Below are positions 13,929-32,841 of a stretch of DNA of 44,815 bases, piece by piece. The number at the start of each line of letters is the position of its first letter. Within the stretch, counting starts at the first letter, position 1. Position numbers and translations under genes: made by a program. The stretch covers positions 1-44,815 of the forward strand of contig JACQFS010000155.1 in assembly GCA_016199935.1 (NCBI GenBank), read 5' to 3'. Below the pieces are notes generated by a model. That model saw nothing but the letters and a program-made list of their open reading frames with translations, did not search any database and was not told where the DNA came from. Origin of the DNA: Verrucomicrobiota bacterium (GTDB lineage Bacteria; Verrucomicrobiota; Verrucomicrobiia; Limisphaerales; JACQFS01).

Positions 13929-14499
13929 GCGCGCAGCTTAGGCGCAAGCGAGCGGGCGATGCAACGCCGGTGTGCTTCGTCTTCTCCACAGCCGCGGCAC
14001 GAGGTGAAATGCGGCTGCGCCCACCGCCGTGAACGCGTGGGGTGGAGGGCAAACACGCCTACCCCCGAAGTCAGCGTCGGTCCCCCTGCCAGTGGACGAC
14101 GGTCCCTGTGGCAGTGAGGAGCGCTCCCCCCGCCAGTGAGCGCCGCCCCCTGTGGCAGGGGGCAACGCCCCCTGCGGCAGGGGCGAGCGCCCCCTGTGCC
14201 AGTGGACGACGCTCCCCCCGCCAGTGGACGGCGGCCCCTATGCCAGTGGGCGGCGTCCACTGTGCCAGTGGGCGGCGTCCCCTGTGGCAGGGGACGGCGG
14301 TCCCTGTGGCAGTGGGCGACGCCCCCTGCGGCAGTAAGCAGCGGCCCCTGTGGCAGGGGGCGATTTCCCCCCCGGGGGTGGGTGCGGCGTGGGGCGGGCT
14401 GGGAATTGGGGAATCCCGCTGGACAGGGCCGGGGCCGGGAATAAAGTGGCGGCATGACCGCCGCAGACCGCTACTTGTCAGGCCGCAAACTCCGGGTGG
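13929..14499. other. Gene-free region with a tandem array upstream of the sugar-transport operon
   Basis: About 570 bp separate the divergent starts at 13928 and 14500. Very GC-rich DNA leaves several frames open on both strands, but none looks like a protein. The main content is the 22-bp tandem array. Operon promoters must lie here, but I could not identify convincing -35/-10 boxes. Confidence 0.7.
14080..14365. repeat. Tandem array of 13 units of exactly 22 bp
   Basis: Thirteen head-to-tail units follow without any length change. A typical unit is CCCCTGYGGCAG followed by a G-rich part and ending (A/G)CG. Many units contain the inverted pair CCCCTG / CAGGGG around a 3-base centre, so each could fold as a small hairpin. 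A degenerate unit of 21 bp precedes the array at 14059-14079. There are no spacers, so it is not a CRISPR. The period is not a multiple of three and no frame repeats, which argues against a coding role. Confidence 0.93.
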
Positions 14500-25948: not shown

Positions 25949-26344
25949 TCACCGCCGCTGCGCGGTGATGAGTTCGTTGAGCTTGTCGGCCAGCATGAGT
26001 TGCACCGGGTCGGTGATGCCGGAGGTGTCAATCAAGCCCACGCCATTCGTGTTGCCGGAACTGTTCGCGGCGGCGGCGGTGAGCGTGGCGGTGAGGCCGT
26101 CGCTCAACTGCACGGCGCTCACTTCGCCGGGCGTGCCGGCATCGCCGGTGTCTCCCTTGTCGCCTTTGCCGCCGGAATCGCCTTGGTCGCCCTTCACACC
26201 GGGGAGGCCGGGATCGCCCGGGTCGCCCTTGGGGATGAGGGTGATCTCGTCGTGCAGTTCGTCGTGCAGGCCGTTGAACTGGTTGCGGAGCTGGTCGGCG
26301 TCGATGTCTTCGCCGTTCTGGGGTTCGGTGGGGATGAAGGGCAT
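25949..26344 (-). CDS. Collagen-like (Gly-X-Y) repeat protein
   Basis: A 131-residue protein from ATG 26344, with AAGGAAA as a ribosome site upstream. After an acidic head (EPQNGEDIDADQLRNQFNGLHDEL) there are eleven uninterrupted Gly-X-Y triplets (about residues 40-75, such as GDPGDPGLPGVKGDQGDSG), then a Ser/Thr/Ala-rich part and the tail LADKLNELITAQRR. Bacterial collagen-like proteins form triple helices; the ends may trimerise. There is no signal peptide, so it could be cytoplasmic, part of an extracellular fibre exported otherwise, or a fragment of a phage-tail-like protein. No other phage genes are seen. It is divergent from the FN3 protein gene across the 21-bp array. Confidence 0.85.
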   Translation of the reverse strand: MPFIPTEPQNGEDIDADQLRNQFNGLHDELHDEITLIPKGDPGDPGLPGVKGDQGDSGGKGDKGDTGDAGTPGEVSAVQLSDGLTATLTAAAANSSGNTNGVGLIDTSGITDPVQLMLADKLNELITAQRR

Positions 26345-26904
26345 GGTGTTTTTCCTTTCGGATGGTTTCGGGGTTTCGGCGGCCATTTGCTGCCCAAATC
26401 GCAGCCGACACAAGCGCCAAAGGCGGTTCTTTCAAATCCGCACCCGGCCAAAGCAGGCGCGGCGGGGTCAAAACAGGCACTTCCGATCTAAATGGCTCGT
26501 GGGCAACTGATTATCCCTGCCGGGAGGGGCCGGGGAGCGACTGGGGAAATCATTTCCTCGATCGAGGAAATGGTTTTCCCGGTCGAAAAACTCATTTCCC
26601 CGGTCGAAAAACCCGCATCCTTCATCGCCGAACTCATTTCCTTCATCGGGAAACCGGCTTCCGCGGTCGAGGAACTCATTTCCCCCGCCGGGGAAATCAT
26701 TTCCGCCGTCGGAAAAACCATTTCTCCGGTCGAGGAACCGGCTTCCGCCATCGGGAAATTTGCTTCCGCCGTCGGGGAACCGGCTCCCCCGGTCGTGCCG
26801 GGAAAGGCGGTGGATAACTTTTCGCGCAATAGTGTTGTGCCCGCCCCGCCCGAGGAACACGGTCGGCTCACTCACCGGAAGGAAATCAACCACCAGCAAT
26901 CAGC
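26345..26904. other. Divergent intergenic region dominated by a 21-bp tandem array
   Basis: 560 bp between the collagen-like and FN3 gene starts. Apart from the array at 26546-26797 no known gene is seen. Because the unit length is seven codons, several frames on both strands stay open and give heptad peptides. I treat them as unproven. Confidence 0.6.
26546..26797. repeat. Tandem array of 12 units of exactly 21 bp
   Basis: Twelve units without length change follow the pattern GAAxyCATTTCCxCCGTCGxx, with AAA and TTT tracts in phase. A perfect 22-bp palindrome centred on TCGATCGA spans 26551-26572. In the forward frame from 26492 the array reads as heptads such as EIISAVG, KLISPVE and KPASAVE; on the reverse strand GNEFLDR-type heptads appear. 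Both could be by-products of the 21-bp period. Confidence 0.93.
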
Positions 26905-27615
26905 ATGGCCACTTACGGCTCGGGAGCAAAGTATGGGTCCGGTGTGAAGTATGGTGCCGGGGTGACCCGAAAGGCCCGCATGAGTAAATTCAAAAGGGAT
27001 CTGAAAAACGACCCCATCCCCGACAAGACCACCCGCGGCGATCAGATCATCACCGCGAGCACCGGCAACGCCGCCTTGGGCACCATCGCCACCGAACTGG
27101 CGGACTTCGTGACCAAGAACGGCAAACTCCTCACCGACTACAACCTCGCCAACGGTTCGCAGGCGCAGACCACGCATCTGGTCGGCGTGCAGAACGACTC
27201 GAACGGCGAATGGGATGTGTCGTATGAAAACCTCCTCGTCGCCATCGAGAAAAACACGCACGGCGCAAAGGCGATAATGGACACGACCACGGTGCCGACC
27301 TTCGAGCCGGGCGTCCACGGGCCGGCCCCCACGCCCACGAAACCCACCGGGCTGACCGTGTCGCGCGGCGACACCACCACCGCCCTGAACCCGAACTGGA
27401 ACGGGCAGAACCCGCACCCGCGCGTGTTCATCATCCGCATGTGCGAGGAGCCCTACCTGCTGAGCAAGATGCAGCAGGTGGGCACCTCCACCGCGAGCGA
27501 CTACGTGAAGGAGGGCCTGACCTCCGGCACGAAATACTGGTTCGACGTGATCGCCGTGGGCAGCGGCGGCCGGCAAAGCCCGCCCAGCGATCCCATCAGC
27601 GGCACCGCCGGCTGA
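26905..27615 (+). CDS. Fibronectin type III domain protein
   Basis: A 236-residue protein. It begins with short YGSG(A/V)KYG repeats (residues 4-20), then a helical segment (TASTGNAALGTIATELADFVTKNGKLLTDYNLANG, including a net of Asn/Thr), and a C-terminal fibronectin type III domain from about 135 (PTKPTGLTVSRGDTTTALNPNW ... EGLTSGTKYWFDVIAVGSGGRQSPPSDPISG). FN3 domains mediate binding in extracellular proteins. No classical signal peptide is visible. The collagen-like gene runs divergently from it, so both may belong to one surface or fibre system. A strong terminator follows at 27633-27667. Confidence 0.85.
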   Translation: MATYGSGAKYGSGVKYGAGVTRKARMSKFKRDLKNDPIPDKTTRGDQIITASTGNAALGTIATELADFVTKNGKLLTDYNLANGSQAQTTHLVGVQNDSNGEWDVSYENLLVAIEKNTHGAKAIMDTTTVPTFEPGVHGPAPTPTKPTGLTVSRGDTTTALNPNWNGQNPHPRVFIIRMCEEPYLLSKMQQVGTSTASDYVKEGLTSGTKYWFDVIAVGSGGRQSPPSDPISGTAG

Positions 27616-27667: not shown

Positions 27668-27765
27668 AATTCCAAGGCCGTAAGGCCAAGATGAAACAAG
27701 TTTTCCCTTTGACGCGGCGCGAGGGGATGGCATGGTTCGCCGTCGGTAAAGAAAGAGCGTCTTCA

Positions 27766-28005
27766 ATGTCTGAACCCATCATCTGCCAACGCGGACCGTT
27801 CGTGAAACGAATGGCCGCCGGGACGTATTGGTGGTGCGCCTGCGGGCGCTCCAAGACCCAACCGTTCTGCGACGGCTCGCACAAGGGCACGGGCATCCAG
27901 CCCAAACAGGTGGACCTCTCGATGGCACGTGGCGTGGCGTGGTGCGGCTGCAAGCACTCGAAGGAAGGCGCCTACTGCGATGGCACGCACGAAACGCTGA
28001 AGTAA
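27766..28005 (+). CDS. CDGSH iron-sulfur domain protein (two CDGSH motifs)
   Basis: A 79-residue protein from ATG 27766. Two zf-CDGSH motifs are complete: C24-x-C26...PFC35-D-G-S-H39 and C60-x-C62...AYC71-D-G-T-H75. Each has the 3-Cys/1-His set that holds a 2Fe-2S cluster, so two clusters are expected. Small bacterial double-CDGSH proteins are soluble and thought to have redox or cluster-transfer roles. There is no membrane anchor, unlike mitochondrial mitoNEET. An upstream in-frame ATG at 27691 is possible but would add non-conserved residues. A bidirectional terminator follows. Confidence 0.93.
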   Translation: MSEPIICQRGPFVKRMAAGTYWWCACGRSKTQPFCDGSHKGTGIQPKQVDLSMARGVAWCGCKHSKEGAYCDGTHETLK

Positions 28006-28078: not shown

Positions 28079-28561
28079 TCAGCCCGTCTTCCGCGGGAAG
28101 AGCGGGCCCGTGTCGGCCATGTTGAGCACCGAAAGGTCGAGGCCGGACTCGGGATCGCGCGCGCCGGCTTTCTTGAGCTGCTCGGCGATGCGCTGGACGG
28201 CCGTGGTGGCGTAGTATTTCACGGCGCCCACGCCGGTCATGCCCTTGAAGATGACGCAGAGGAGCACGTTCTCATCAATGTTGCTGACGAGCAGGCTGTG
28301 CGTCTCGCCCTGCTGGTAGATGTGCGAGAAACTTTTCTCGCCGATCAGGTTGGCGATCTCGCCGTTGGCGGCGTAGGAGCCGGCGCTGAGGGCGGCGACG
28401 GTGGTGCTGTCGAAGTCGTCCCAATGCCCCTGGTTGGTGACCAGGAAGCCGCCCTTGTCAATGACGAGCGCATTGAGGGACTCGCTCTTGGAGACCAGGT
28501 CGCGCAGGGCGGCGTTGATCTCCGTCACGTCCTCTTCGAGGAGTTGGGGGAGAGTGAACAT
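28079..28561 (-). CDS. Roadblock/LC7 domain protein, MglB-like
   Basis: A 160-residue protein with a Roadblock/LC7 fold: LVSKSESLNALVIDKGGFLVTNQG near 22-45, STTVAALSAGSYAANGEIANLIGE near 52-75, and LLVSNIDENVLLCVIFKGMTGVGAVKYYA near 88-115. In Myxococcus xanthus, MglB is a roadblock protein of about 160 residues that is the GTPase-activating partner of MglA. The MglA-like gene lies 4 bp upstream on the same strand, strongly suggesting the same pairing. The C-terminal part (DPESGLDLSVLNMADTGPLF) is poorly conserved. It ends at the bidirectional terminator. Confidence 0.92.
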   Translation of the reverse strand: MFTLPQLLEEDVTEINAALRDLVSKSESLNALVIDKGGFLVTNQGHWDDFDSTTVAALSAGSYAANGEIANLIGEKSFSHIYQQGETHSLLVSNIDENVLLCVIFKGMTGVGAVKYYATTAVQRIAEQLKKAGARDPESGLDLSVLNMADTGPLFPRKTG

Positions 28562-28565
28562 GGTA

Positions 28566-29180
28566 TCAGGCAGCCTTGCGGTTGCTTTCGTTGATGAACT
28601 TGTGGAGGAGCATCCGGGTGATCATGTTGAGCGTCTCGAAGACGCCCTCGCCCTTGTTCGCGCAGGCCCCAAACGTGGGCGCCTGGGTCTCGCGATTGTT
28701 GAGGAGGAACTCCATGTATTCCGTCGGCGCGGCGTTGGGCAGGTCGCGCTTGTTGAACTGGATGACGTAGGGGATGTCGTCGATGTTGAGCTTCAGGCTC
28801 TTGAGGTTGTCCACCAGGTTCTGGAAGCTCTCGACGTTCTCCTGCATCTTCTCGTATTGCGAATCGGCGACGAACACAATCCCGTCCACGCCGCGGAGCA
28901 CGAGCTGGCGGGTGGTGTTGTAGATCACCTGGCCGGGCACGGTGTAGAGCTGGAACTTGGTCTTGAACCCCTTGATCGCCATCGCCTGGATGGGGAGGAA
29001 ATCAAAGAAGAGCGTGCGGTCCGAACTCGTCGCGAGGCTGACGAGCTTGCCCTTGTTGGAGTCGGCGGTCTGCACGTTGGCGTGGACCTGTTCGAGGTTG
29101 GTCGTCTTGCCGCACATGGCGGGACCGTAGTAAACGACCTTGACCTGCAGTTCTTTGGTAGCTTGGTTGATGATGGCCAT
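28566..29180 (-). CDS. mglA: MglA-like small Ras-family GTPase
   Basis: A 204-residue GTPase. Motifs: P-loop GPAMCGKTT (19-27), the DRTLFFDFLP segment near 54-63, TVPGQVIYN (80-88) as the switch II/G3 equivalent typical of MglA (TVPGQ replaces DxxGQ), VFVADSQ near 102-108 and the guanine-recognising NKRD (143-146). All are characteristic of the MglA family, which controls polarity and motility or other surface processes in bacteria. The MglB-like gene follows 4 bp downstream and a Pro-rich roadblock-like protein gene lies 20 bp upstream. The output pathway here is not known; no gliding or pilus gene is in the window. Confidence 0.95.
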   Translation of the reverse strand: MAIINQATKELQVKVVYYGPAMCGKTTNLEQVHANVQTADSNKGKLVSLATSSDRTLFFDFLPIQAMAIKGFKTKFQLYTVPGQVIYNTTRQLVLRGVDGIVFVADSQYEKMQENVESFQNLVDNLKSLKLNIDDIPYVIQFNKRDLPNAAPTEYMEFLLNNRETQAPTFGACANKGEGVFETLNMITRMLLHKFINESNRKAA

Positions 29181-29200
29181 AAATGTGTGTTGGAGGAGGA

Positions 29201-30964
29201 TTACTTGCCCAGGTAGTCGGCGACGATTTGCAGTTCGGGAACGGGAAGTTGCTCGCCGGGTTTGCCGACGACGATGAGGTTGACGCGGGCGGTCTGGAAA
29301 ATTCCGTAGCCCGTGGTCTCGATGGTGAAACCCACCTGGCGCGGCGAGCCCAGGCGCAGCTCGCGGGTGTAATTGGTGATGCGGTTGACCATCTGGGTCA
29401 TCAGCGCGCAGAAATTGTCGCTGCCCACCGGCGAGATGAAATGATCGGCCACCACCAGACCGTCGGGCGTGCAGATGAGCACGCCGGCGACGCCGCGCAG
29501 CGTGGCGGTCTTGCGCGCGACCTCGGCCGGCGTGCAGTTGCGACCGGGATCGGCGCCGAAAACGTCAACGATGTTCTGCGGCACCTTCGCGGCGGCAGGT
29601 GCGGGAGCCGGAGCCGGAGCGGCCACGGGTGCCGGTGCCACCGGAGCCGGCTGCGCCACCGGAGCCGCCGCCGGAGCCGCCGCCGCGGCGGCGGGCTTGG
29701 AAGTCGGCCCAAACAGATTCGGAATCGCCGCGAAGTCCTGCGACGCGAACTTGGACGGCGTGGCCGGCGCGGCACCCACGCGCTTCTGCGCGAGGAACAG
29801 CGGCGCGATGACCCGCAGCGGAAGTTCGAGCAGCGCGCTGTCACTCGGGGACACTGACAACACCTTGGCCACGGTGGGAATCCACACGCGAAGCTGGCCC
29901 CACGTATAGGTCAGGCGACCGACTTTGAGTCCGCGTTCCAGCTCGCCCATCGGCAGCTCGACGATTTCATCCTGCAGGTTGAGCTGCGTGATCTCAGCGG
30001 CCACCGTCGCCGGCCAGTTTTCCATGAGCCGCTGCAATTGAACCTGGAGCGAAGCTCCGCCCGCCGCCACGGGAACCGGTGCGGGCGCGGCCGCCGGACG
30101 GGAGGGAGCAGTTGGAGCGGGCGCGGGACGCGAGTAAGCCGGGGCGGCCGACGCCGACTGATCCGCCATGCGCAACGACTCAACCGGCGCGGGCGCGGGA
30201 GGCGCGACGGGTTGCGGCGCCGTCGGTGCGGGTGCGGGCGCGGCGGGAGCCGGAGCATTCGCCCGGACCGGCGCATTCGTCGCGATGGTCACGGCGGCAC
30301 CGGGCTTGAACAACGGGCTGACCGACTCGGGCACCGAGACTTGTTTTTGATTGTTGCGCCGCGGGAGGTGCGAGGGAGAAAGCCGCGCGATGACCTCATT
30401 CAACGGCAGGGACACCAGGGTCGCGTCCATCCGGTCGGTGTCGAGGAAGGTTCCCGCCGGGGCACGCCGCCGGATGTCACCGAAGGAGATTTTCACGGAA
30501 CCTTTGGAGAGCTGCTGGAGAATCGGCTGCAACGGCAGGGACACGGTCACGTCACTGGCGGGTTGCGCCTTCACCATGGCGGCCAGCTCTTCCGGCAGGC
30601 GCGCGATGAGGCTGCGCAGGGGAATGTTGACCGCGGTGCCGGCGGGTTCGATCGGGGCCGGCGCGCTTTTGGCGGCGGGTGCCGGCGCGGGCGCAGAAGT
30701 TGGGGCAGGCACTGGAAGATTTTTGGGCGCGGGCACCGGCGCCGGCGGCGGCTTGGGCGCCGTGCGCGGGGCGATGGTGGCCTGCCGCGCCCCGGCGCCG
30801 TTACCATTGGCGCCCGCCGGGGAATTGCGGGCCTGCGGTGACGGCATCGTCACCTGACGCGAGGATTTGATCTTGGGCGGCACGCCACGACTCGGAGTAT
30901 TATACGAGCCCTGGTTACGCGTGGGAACCCGCCGCGTGAAAATGTGTTTCAAAAGTTCAAACAT
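29201..30964 (-). CDS. Pro/Ala-rich protein with repeated VxLPL modules and a C-terminal roadblock-like domain
   Basis: A 587-residue protein from ATG 30964 (MFELLKHIFTRR); the frame also opens at a TTG at 30976. Long Pro/Ala-rich spacers (about 45-110, 225-320, 425-470) separate short modules: VNIPLRSLIARLP, VTVSLPLQPILQQL, TLVSLPLNEVIARL, IVELPMGELERGL and LLELPLRVIAPLF. The last 120 residues (FGADPGRNCTPAEVARKTATLRGVAGVLICTPDGL...) have the Roadblock/LC7 pattern. The MglA-like and MglB-like genes follow 20 bp downstream, so it probably works with the GTPase, perhaps as a scaffold. Cytoplasmic; no signal peptide. The module also occurs singly in the 94-residue protein on the other arm. Confidence 0.8.
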   Translation of the reverse strand: MFELLKHIFTRRVPTRNQGSYNTPSRGVPPKIKSSRQVTMPSPQARNSPAGANGNGAGARQATIAPRTAPKPPPAPVPAPKNLPVPAPTSAPAPAPAAKSAPAPIEPAGTAVNIPLRSLIARLPEELAAMVKAQPASDVTVSLPLQPILQQLSKGSVKISFGDIRRRAPAGTFLDTDRMDATLVSLPLNEVIARLSPSHLPRRNNQKQVSVPESVSPLFKPGAAVTIATNAPVRANAPAPAAPAPAPTAPQPVAPPAPAPVESLRMADQSASAAPAYSRPAPAPTAPSRPAAAPAPVPVAAGGASLQVQLQRLMENWPATVAAEITQLNLQDEIVELPMGELERGLKVGRLTYTWGQLRVWIPTVAKVLSVSPSDSALLELPLRVIAPLFLAQKRVGAAPATPSKFASQDFAAIPNLFGPTSKPAAAAAAPAAAPVAQPAPVAPAPVAAPAPAPAPAAAKVPQNIVDVFGADPGRNCTPAEVARKTATLRGVAGVLICTPDGLVVADHFISPVGSDNFCALMTQMVNRITNYTRELRLGSPRQVGFTIETTGYGIFQTARVNLIVVGKPGEQLPVPELQIVADYLGK

Positions 30965-31062
30965 GGCGTTTCGCAATTAGCAGAACGTGCGCCATGTCCG
31001 TGCGAATTTTTTTTCGAGCCTTTGCGAAACCTGTCCCGAGAAATGCTATAGGCGGTGAGAAA
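30965..31062 (+). promoter_or_regulatory. Divergent promoter region with a candidate sigma70-type promoter
   Basis: About 98 bp separate the two arms of the signalling locus. For the plus arm, TTGCGA (31022-31027) and GCTATA (31045-31050) are spaced 17 bp apart, and a GGTGAG ribosome-like site precedes the GTG start at 31063. This is a weak match and is tentative. Confidence 0.3.
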
Positions 31063-32130
31063 GTGCATACTTCATTTATCCAGAAACCGCAGAAAGTGCT
31101 GCTGCTGGACGACGATCGGGCGATCCTTGAGATCTACAAGGAGCTGATCGCGCGTTTGCCCAGCCGTCCCGATGTCCAGGTGGCGGACAGCGGCGCGGCG
31201 GCCGTTTCCCTGTTGGAGACCGAGGAGTTCAATCTGTTGGTGTCCGATTTGCGGATGGCGGAGATGGACGGTTTCCAAGTCCTGGCCATCGTGCGGCGGC
31301 GGCACCCCGCCCTGCGCACGGTGGTGATGACGGCGTTGAACGATGCGCACTTTCGCGCCCGGGCCTACGCGCTGGGGGTGGACCTCTTCATCAAGAAGCC
31401 CACGACGGCCGAAGAGTGGGAGATGTTGTGCGACAGCATCGAGTGGCTCCTCCAATCGGAGGCCCAGGGCGGCTTCCGCGGCATCCAGAACAAGTCCCTC
31501 GTGGACATCATCCAGTTGGAGTGCCTTTCGCACTGCAACTCGGTATTGCGAATCATCAACGGCCCCGCCGAGGGCTGGATCTGGTTCGACAGCGGCGAAA
31601 TCATTGACTCCGCCCACGGCGATCTGACCGGGGAAGCCGCGTTCCGCGCGATTCTCGCCTGGAAGAGCGGATATTTCGAAATCCTCCCGCCCGACAAGGG
31701 ACGGGAGCGCGCGATTTTCAATTCCTACCAGAGCCTCCTGCTCGAGAGTGCCCAGACAATAGACGAGAACCGTAGCCTGGCGGGACACCAGACGGACATG
31801 CTCCGGGGTCCGGTCGCCGAGGACTTCACCCGCTACCCCGGCGTCAAGTTCGTCGTCTCCGCCGACGGGCCCGAGACGGTCGAGGCTTGGGGCGTGGAAA
31901 ATGCTGAACCGCTGGCAGTCTGGATTCGCACGACTATGGAACGCTTCCATAAACTTGGCTTGGACCTGCAACTGGGACCGGTGACCCAGTTGGACGGCGT
32001 TTCCGGCCAGACGCAACTGGTGGTCGTCTCCGCCGGCCCGCGCGACATCTGCCTGGGCATGGACAAACACTCCACCAGCGACCAGTTGCGCCAGACCCTT
32101 GAGAAAGTCCTCTCCAAATGGAACTCCTGA
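31063..32130 (+). CDS. Receiver-PATAN (DUF4388)-roadblock-like response regulator
   Basis: About 355 residues from GTG 31063; ATG 30994 would add 23 residues but lies before the candidate promoter. Domains: a receiver (about 10-125) with acidic D16-D18, phosphorylation site D62 (LLVSDLRMAEMDGF), T90 and K111; a PATAN/DUF4388 domain (about 135-250; FRGIQNKSLVDIIQLECLSHCN, GEIIDSAHGDLTGEAAFRAILAWKSGYFEI); and a C-terminal region (about 265-355; PGVKFVVSADGPETVEAWG, TQLVVVSAGPRDICLGMD) with a Roadblock/LC7-like pattern. PATAN domains are linked to small GTPases and roadblock proteins. It lies divergent from the MglA operon, so it is a likely input to the GTPase. Its stop overlaps the next start. 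Confidence 0.88.
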   Translation: MHTSFIQKPQKVLLLDDDRAILEIYKELIARLPSRPDVQVADSGAAAVSLLETEEFNLLVSDLRMAEMDGFQVLAIVRRRHPALRTVVMTALNDAHFRARAYALGVDLFIKKPTTAEEWEMLCDSIEWLLQSEAQGGFRGIQNKSLVDIIQLECLSHCNSVLRIINGPAEGWIWFDSGEIIDSAHGDLTGEAAFRAILAWKSGYFEILPPDKGRERAIFNSYQSLLLESAQTIDENRSLAGHQTDMLRGPVAEDFTRYPGVKFVVSADGPETVEAWGVENAEPLAVWIRTTMERFHKLGLDLQLGPVTQLDGVSGQTQLVVVSAGPRDICLGMDKHSTSDQLRQTLEKVLSKWNS

Positions 32131-32402
32131 GTCTATTCAGCCGCCAGGTCGATGAACTGCCCCAGCCGATTCCGGCCGGCAGCTTCACCATCAATCGCAA
32201 CGGCCAGATCACGGCGTCCACCCTGCCCAGCTCCTTTCCCAATTCCTTTCTCAACGACATCGCCCAGCACATCCTCACCACCTTTCAGGAAGCCCGCTCC
32301 GTCGAGCTGCCCCTGACCGAGCTCGCGATCAACTATCCCGATTTCAAACTTGCCGCCCGCGAACTCACCGGCGGCGCCATCATTTTCTTCATCCCGCGCT
32401 AA
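32118..32402 (+). CDS. Small protein carrying a single VELPL module
   Basis: A 94-residue protein whose start overlaps the response regulator end by 13 bp. After a beta-like head (ITINRN-type strand: GSFTINRNGQITASTLPSSF) and a helix (LNDIAQHILTTFQEAR), it contains VELPLTELAINYPDFK...AIIFFIP near 62-93. This matches the module VELPMGELERGLKV...VWIP in the 587-residue protein of the opposite arm, with a small gap. I do not recognise a family. Being coupled to the receiver-PATAN gene, it is probably an adaptor of the same signalling system. Confidence 0.85.
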   Translation: MELLSLFSRQVDELPQPIPAGSFTINRNGQITASTLPSSFPNSFLNDIAQHILTTFQEARSVELPLTELAINYPDFKLAARELTGGAIIFFIPR

Positions 32403-32421
32403 CCCTCCACCCATCGAACTT

Positions 32422-32841
32422 ATGTCCAAGGAAGCCGACAAACTCCAACAACTGATCCTCCAGCTCGAGAACTACATCGAGTGCTGGAAGCAGTTCAACC
32501 ACTACCTCACCAAGGCCCGCGAGAAGCGTTTCGACGCCGACGACGAGAGCCAGTTCCTCGACTGCAAATGCGTCATCACGCAGGAGCTCGAGGCCATCCT
32601 CGACAGCGTCGAATGCACCGACCCGACCAAGGAGGACATCCACGCCCTGATGACCCGCTGCCCCTCCCTCAGTTGCCTGAGCGAACAGCAGGAGAGCGTG
32701 CTGCGCCAGGTCGAGAACCAGTGGCACAAGATTTACATCGCCTGGCAGTCCATCCTCGGCCAGCTCAAGGTCGCCATGCGCAAGCAGGAGGACAAGGGCG
32801 GCTGGTCCTTCTCCCTCTTCGGCAAGAAGAAGGAAGCCTGA
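32422..32841 (+). CDS. Hypothetical helical protein of the signalling locus
   Basis: A 139-residue protein from ATG 32422; the frame also reaches upstream to 32350. It looks all-helical and partly coiled-coil (KLQQLILQLENYIECWKQFNHYLTKAREKR near 5-35, then LDCKCVITQELEAIL, LSEQQESVLRQVENQWHKIYIAWQSILGQL) with several cysteines. The end (WSFSLFGKKKEA) is basic. No family recognised. It follows the 94-residue gene by 19 bp and ends at a terminator, so it is the last gene of this arm. Confidence 0.75.
   Translation: MSKEADKLQQLILQLENYIECWKQFNHYLTKAREKRFDADDESQFLDCKCVITQELEAILDSVECTDPTKEDIHALMTRCPSLSCLSEQQESVLRQVENQWHKIYIAWQSILGQLKVAMRKQEDKGGWSFSLFGKKKEA

Follow-up and report, generated by a model that had tools for sequence, protein, structure and literature searches.

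A conserved divergent locus of MglA, MglB, receiver-PATAN and accessory genes in Limisphaerales (Verrucomicrobiota)

How might a two-component signal be conveyed to a bacterial Ras-like GTPase in the Verrucomicrobiota, a phylum in which surface motility and polarity have been little studied? MglA signalling is known mainly from Myxococcus, where its partners are different and form a more complex set. The question is raised by six genes between positions 28079 and 32841 of a 44,815-nt stretch of DNA from a Limisphaerales genome (contig JACQFS010000155.1; hereafter the window, in which all positions are counted). An initial annotation had placed six open reading frames (ORFs) here, and each was confirmed at its position. 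They form two divergent arms: P3, mglA and mglB are transcribed in that order from the minus strand, and P4, P5 and P6 from the plus strand, P4 being a regulator with receiver and PATAN (DUF4388) domains. The reading that we favor, and consider reasonably probable, is that of a two-component-controlled MglA/MglB module, i.e., a verrucomicrobial form of the polarity switch built on MglA, which would act on type IV pilus motors. The compact locus names probable MglA partners, with two apparently undescribed protein families and one new repeat domain among them, and, as all of its parts are predicted to be soluble and co-expressible, it offers a direct test of whether a two-component signal acts by way of roadblock proteins on a Ras-like GTPase of bacteria.

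The locus is a genuine, conserved unit. The sample comprised 57 genomes of the same order (Limisphaerales) and the window's own, 58 in all, with one genome per family. About 33 to 40 orthologues per gene were found in the order, nearly always in single copy and in the same arrangement; MglA was present in 34 of the 58 genomes, P5 in 37, and P6 in 39. All six genes occurred together on 22 contigs (window included), invariably in the divergent layout. The linkage of the two arms that the initial annotation had supposed proved strong when P5 was taken as the mark of the plus arm and the window's own genome was left out: 31 of the 57 genomes had both MglA and P5, 2 had MglA only, 5 had P5 only, and 19 had neither (Fisher p 1.1e-8). 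The 39 genomes that were at least 90% complete gave a similar picture (19 both, 1 MglA only, 2 P5 only, 17 neither; p 5.8e-8), and these p values serve as a guide only, since families are not independent draws. In two of the P5-only genomes (G027 and G035), P3 runs off the end of its contig, so real separation of the arms is rarer than counted. The neighborhood survey across the Verrucomicrobiota that had been proposed with the annotation yielded a conserved divergent locus within the order and related neighborhoods outside it, and a scan of named genomes found 18 six-gene loci, mostly labelled Pedosphaera, Limisphaera, Limisphaerales or Verrucomicrobia subdivision 3. Chance ORFs or misassembly are ruled out by the syntenic orthologues in many families.

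Could the arms nevertheless be two independent modules, MglA-MglB-P3 and receiver-PATAN-P5-P6, that share a divergent promoter region? Some genomes do keep them apart. For example, G011 carries the arms on distant contigs, G053 has the plus arm in mid-contig without MglA, P6 stands alone in G029 and G051, and in two P6-bearing genomes outside the order (G070 and G224) P6 directly adjoins a PATAN gene, far from any MglA. Across the phylum, P6 was found in 4 of 388 genomes, the window's own included, and its presence beside PATAN genes without MglA suggests a closer tie to PATAN proteins than to MglA. Set against this are the co-occurrence of the arms (p about 1e-8), the identical layout of all 22 six-gene loci, and the PATAN genes that lie beside P3-like or MglA genes in several lineages with differing gene orders. 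Two separate modules are, in our judgment, a distinctly unlikely explanation.

The identities of MglA and MglB, as first annotated, were borne out. The MglA-type small Ras-like GTPase (204 aa; 28566 to 29180, minus strand) matches the solved MglA 6h17 over residues 1-194 (E 1.9e-64), and its P-loop (G24-K25-T26), R55, Q84 and N143-K144-x-D146 are invariant in 30 of 30 orthologues. R55 and Q84 are the equivalents of R53 and Q82, the intrinsic catalytic Arg and Gln of Thermus and Myxococcus MglA (PMC6785124). It is the single MglA match in the window's own genome at E <= 0.001. The mglB gene (160 aa; 28079 to 28561, minus strand), which adjoins mglA in all 22 six-gene loci, encodes a roadblock protein scoring 34.7 bits against Robl_LC7 (PF03259; cut-off 23), and the nearest solved relatives of its orthologue profile are the MglB structures 6izw (E 2.8e-25) and 6h5b (E 4.9e-25). 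This protein is probably the roadblock GTPase-activating protein (GAP) of MglA. It scores 72.5 bits against the NCBIfam equivalog for the GTPase-activating protein MglB (NF052242), below the cut-off of 200; the name of that family, MglBThm, suggests a Thermus-type equivalog, so that the low score argues only against membership in that narrow group. A phage origin or a defence role for the locus was rejected, as the MglA query retrieved nothing related from viral contigs and PADLOC returned no match for the locus proteins.

What, then, accompanies this GTPase and its probable GAP? P3 (29201 to 30964, minus strand), initially described as a Pro/Ala-rich roadblock-like protein of 587 residues, carries a clear roadblock in its predicted structure along with the Pro/Ala-rich linkers, although that description missed two folded alpha/beta domains. 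AlphaFold places these at residues ~105-205 and ~303-398 and the roadblock at 474-587 (29204 to 29545, minus strand), most of these regions having a pLDDT >90. The predicted C-terminal fold, ordered alpha1-beta1-beta2-alpha2-beta3-beta4-beta5-alpha3, resembles the Asgard roadblock 9jue_A (Z 17.1, rmsd 1.9, 112 aligned) and MglB 6h5b_C (Z 15.5, rmsd 2.5, 114 aligned), and Robl_LC7 is matched by 31 of 33 P3 orthologues, the window's own copy falling below the cut-off. The two alpha/beta domains represent a duplication: hhalign aligns them with P 98.5% and E 1.5e-15, at a score of 83.8 versus at most 16.8 in 40 column shuffles. No Pfam match was obtained for this repeat domain of roughly 90 residues when the orthologues were searched, and the fold-search list, filled by roadblock-domain matches, hardly probed it. 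A single-sequence scan for P3 relatives found none; the relatives came from whole-genome searches and alignments.

P4 (30994 to 32130 as called, plus strand) had been annotated as a receiver-PATAN-roadblock-like protein. The first two domains are well above their Pfam cut-offs (72.7 bits against 30.2 for Response_reg, PF00072; 43.1 against 25 for DUF4388/PATAN, PF14332), while the third is suggested by its profile. Specifically, this C-terminal domain (31807 to 32127, plus strand) has no Pfam match, and the best match of its profile in the Protein Data Bank (PDB) is the roadblock 7f8f, over positions 8-91 of 115, with E 0.096 when 30 sequences were used and 0.0046 with 46; it is probably roadblock-like. 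The receiver retains D39, D40 and D85 in 33 of 33 rows, and K135 in 34 of 34, counting rows with a letter at that position. With these phosphorylation residues kept, the phosphorylation-controlled GTPase switch of the initial annotation is reasonable, control of the GTPase being a step that we infer. Translation of P4 probably begins at GTG 31063 (355 aa) and not at the first ATG, 30994, because orthologues are mostly 351-366 aa long; with that start, the gap between the arms is ~98 bp. A sigma-70-like site oriented towards P3 lies within the P3 ORF as called, and alone proves nothing.

The first 13 nt of P5 (94 aa; 32118 to 32402, plus strand) lie within the end of P4, and the overlap is exactly 13 nt in 18 of the 22 six-gene loci, which suggests translational coupling. 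P5 is probably a minimal roadblock-like protein: the sole PDB match of its profile is the roadblock 7yh1_D (E 3.5e-4, over 41 residues), and a Pfam roadblock match was seen in 1 of 37 orthologues (E 0.17). Comparison of the roadblock families with one another by hhalign failed its positive control (MglB scored no better against the P3 roadblock than shuffles did), so weak scores between roadblocks were not counted as evidence against. P6 (139 aa; 32422 to 32841, plus strand) had been annotated as a helical protein, in agreement with the four-helix bundle predicted by AlphaFold (pLDDT 91.1), which ends in a flexible C-terminal tail with an LFGKK-like terminus. Its fold search returned four-helix bundles of many kinds (Z 10-13) and no specific structural relative. 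Both small proteins may be adaptors, as was first proposed, but P5 is better termed a third roadblock-like accessory. In one locus (L142, 335-5916), a second P5 copy was observed directly upstream of a 1688-aa ORF that, by eye, starts with a receiver domain.

P3 and P5 have short hydrophobic-basic ends at the N-terminus, and P6 and MglB have them at the C-terminus; these ends would be compatible with docking to a membrane or to a shared partner. An LF-basic motif stands above shuffles at the P5 N-terminus and the P6 C-terminus. Since a loose form of the pattern also matches the MglA C-terminus and is not clearly above shuffles for P3, the motif is offered here as an idea.

In the favored module, MglA would be the GTP/GDP switch and MglB its roadblock GAP, as homology and the conserved catalytic residues suggest. 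P4 would be the input, with a histidine kinase phosphorylating its receiver and its PATAN and roadblock-like domains relaying the signal to MglA/MglB. P3 may serve as a scaffold, its roadblock being joined via disordered linkers to the two copies of the new alpha/beta domain. P5, whose translation is probably coupled to that of P4, and the helical bundle P6, with its link to PATAN proteins, would be accessory subunits of the P4 arm, the contacts being suggested by genetic linkage. Given the roadblock of P3 and the roadblock-like parts of P4 and P5, one GTPase would stand among up to four roadblock-type modules (MglB, P3, P4 and P5). A bolder view is that the locus parallels the eukaryotic Ragulator in its design: these same modules, perhaps as heterodimers, would make up a scaffold that is held at the membrane by the hydrophobic-basic termini of P3, P5, P6 and MglB (LFGKK-like) and onto which one Ras-like GTPase is loaded under phosphorylation control. 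This we regard as speculative and rather improbable.

In Myxococcus, MglA is switched off at sites set by a complex of MglB with the receiver protein RomR and with MglC, a roadblock that lacks GAP activity (PMC10329633). The favored module may function in a similar manner, with a receiver protein and a non-GAP roadblock positioning the GAP; P4 could unite the roles of RomR and MglC, while P3 and P5 would add more roadblocks and P6 a helical subunit. Like the M. xanthus module (MglA, MglB, MglC, RomR, RomX, RomY), the locus encodes an MglA GTPase, an MglB roadblock, a second roadblock-type protein and a receiver protein. Unlike that module, the receiver here is fused to PATAN and roadblock-like domains, the extra roadblock lies inside a 587-aa putative scaffold, P5 and P6 are present, and all of the genes share one locus. 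In RomR, the receiver precedes a helical C-terminal region to which MglC binds; P4 has a receiver, PATAN and, by profile, a roadblock-like C-terminus. MglC binds MglB and the receiver protein, and P3, P4 and P5 are candidate counterparts by domain only.

The comparison raises the alternative that P4 or P6 acts as an MglA guanine nucleotide exchange factor (GEF), in a RomX-like role, and not as a factor that positions the GAP. No RomX-like protein was identified in the locus, and GEF activity in Myxococcus belongs to the response-regulator partner, RomR/RomX (PMC10329633). Neither sequence nor fold points to an exchange factor, however; P6 resembles only common four-helix bundles, and MglB may itself have exchange activity, as in Myxococcus (PMC6785124). 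We consider a GEF role for either protein unlikely.

What would the switch control? Its output is probably the positioning or the activity of type IV pilus motors, although this is the weakest step of the favored reading. Synechocystis PATAN response regulators bind PilB (PMC10519157). Cyanobacterial PATAN response regulators act on pilus motors, Myxococcus MglA acts on pili and gliding, and in the window's own genome an FHA-PATAN gene (C5:22343-23326; L258 8344-9327) lies ~1.6 kb from a pilT-type gene (C5:19696-20733). These points speak against the main rival, in which the same switch has another output, e.g., the placing of cell-wall, secretion or cell-division machinery. On its side, no pilus motor gene was found among the recurrent neighbors of the locus, and the commonest conserved neighbor downstream of P6 is an undecaprenyl-diphosphatase-like gene (in many of 15 loci, e.g., L102:7581-8456), which is not adjacent to P6 in the window. 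Likewise, PilT-type ATPases (58 of 58 genomes) and PilM (56 of 58) do not track the locus; being near-universal in the sample, they are uninformative as a phylogenetic correlate, and the pilus output therefore stays one that we infer. We regard another output as quite possible, but less probable than not.

Several of these observations weigh directly against the favored reading. Pilus genes occur whether or not a genome has the locus and do not discriminate, and no pilus motor gene recurs beside it; the arms are apart in some genomes; the roadblock likeness of P4 comes from one profile match (E 0.0046) and that of P5 from a match over 41 residues (E 3.5e-4); and the window's own genome has no CheW match, a further difference from M. 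xanthus. CheW was found in 30 of the 58 genomes, and chemosensory input was rejected as a general rule; in the window's own genome, the missing match makes a Frz- or Chp-like input unlikely.

PATAN genes themselves were found in 37 of the 58 genomes, namely 33 of the 34 with MglA (the exception being G055) and four with the plus arm only, and in 0 of the 17 without trace of MglA, P5 or P6. With four PATAN matches in the window's own genome and a single MglA, that GTPase may be shared by several PATAN proteins. Elsewhere in that genome (C5; L259 2782-6072), a receiver-PATAN gene adjoins a HEAT-repeat-like gene. The pairing recurs in several genomes (L264, L265, L266, L269), sometimes with an extra small protein that is roadblock-like by eye, and is possibly a second input to the same MglA.

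Other systems share parts of this design. The Streptomyces conservon (CvnA-D) also ties a GTPase and a roadblock protein to two-component signalling; unlike the conservon, the six proteins include a receiver protein and other partners instead of a histidine-kinase domain (CvnA). The PATAN-CheY regulators of Synechocystis (PixE, PixG, LsiR) likewise combine receiver and PATAN, but PATAN is N-terminal there, whereas here receiver-PATAN is followed by a C-terminal roadblock-like domain; the portion of the source available describes no MglA locus with them. For MglA of groups 1 and 5, loci with PATAN genes close by are credited to Makarova et al. (2006) and to Wuichet and Sogaard-Andersen (2014); the latter called the association occasional, and their survey places Verrucomicrobia among group 5 (PMC4316618). 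Like group 1/5 loci, the present one has MglA/MglB next to a PATAN-domain gene; unlike them, it keeps a constant set of six genes, which includes two further families and a putative scaffold with a duplicated domain. A search of open-licence papers found no description of a six-gene locus of this kind in Verrucomicrobiota. Thus, the presence of PATAN genes near mglA was already on record, but the unit of six genes appears to be undescribed, as do P5, P6 and the repeat domain of P3.

Beyond the order, the MglA-MglB pair adjoins a gene for a P3-like protein that includes the repeat domain in Chthoniobacterales-type Verrucomicrobiota, Lentisphaerota and Kiritimatiellia; a PATAN gene is often nearby, and the order of the genes varies. 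Zixibacteria, Planctomycetota and others have, upstream of mglA, a small roadblock gene that matches only the P3 C-terminus. It is plausible that P3 arose when such a small roadblock protein acquired the repeat domain, with P5 and P6 being added later. Some P3-like proteins outside the order (L169, L173) have, by eye, a ComEA-like helix-hairpin-helix between their repeat and roadblock parts.

Downstream of mglB, the window encodes a small protein of CDGSH iron-sulphur type, by eye (27691-28005), and three further genomes have relatives of it close to the locus. Further on lie a collagen-like ORF (25949-26344, minus strand) and an FN3-like ORF (26905-27615, plus strand), separated by a degenerate 21-nt tandem repeat (26545-26795). 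This repeat cassette (25949-27615) was rejected as a partner of the locus, as the collagen-like family has 28 match segments at roughly 20 places in the window's own genome. Finally, a GC-rich 22/66-nt tandem repeat array, with 12.5 copies of the 22-nt unit, is located at 14090-14363.

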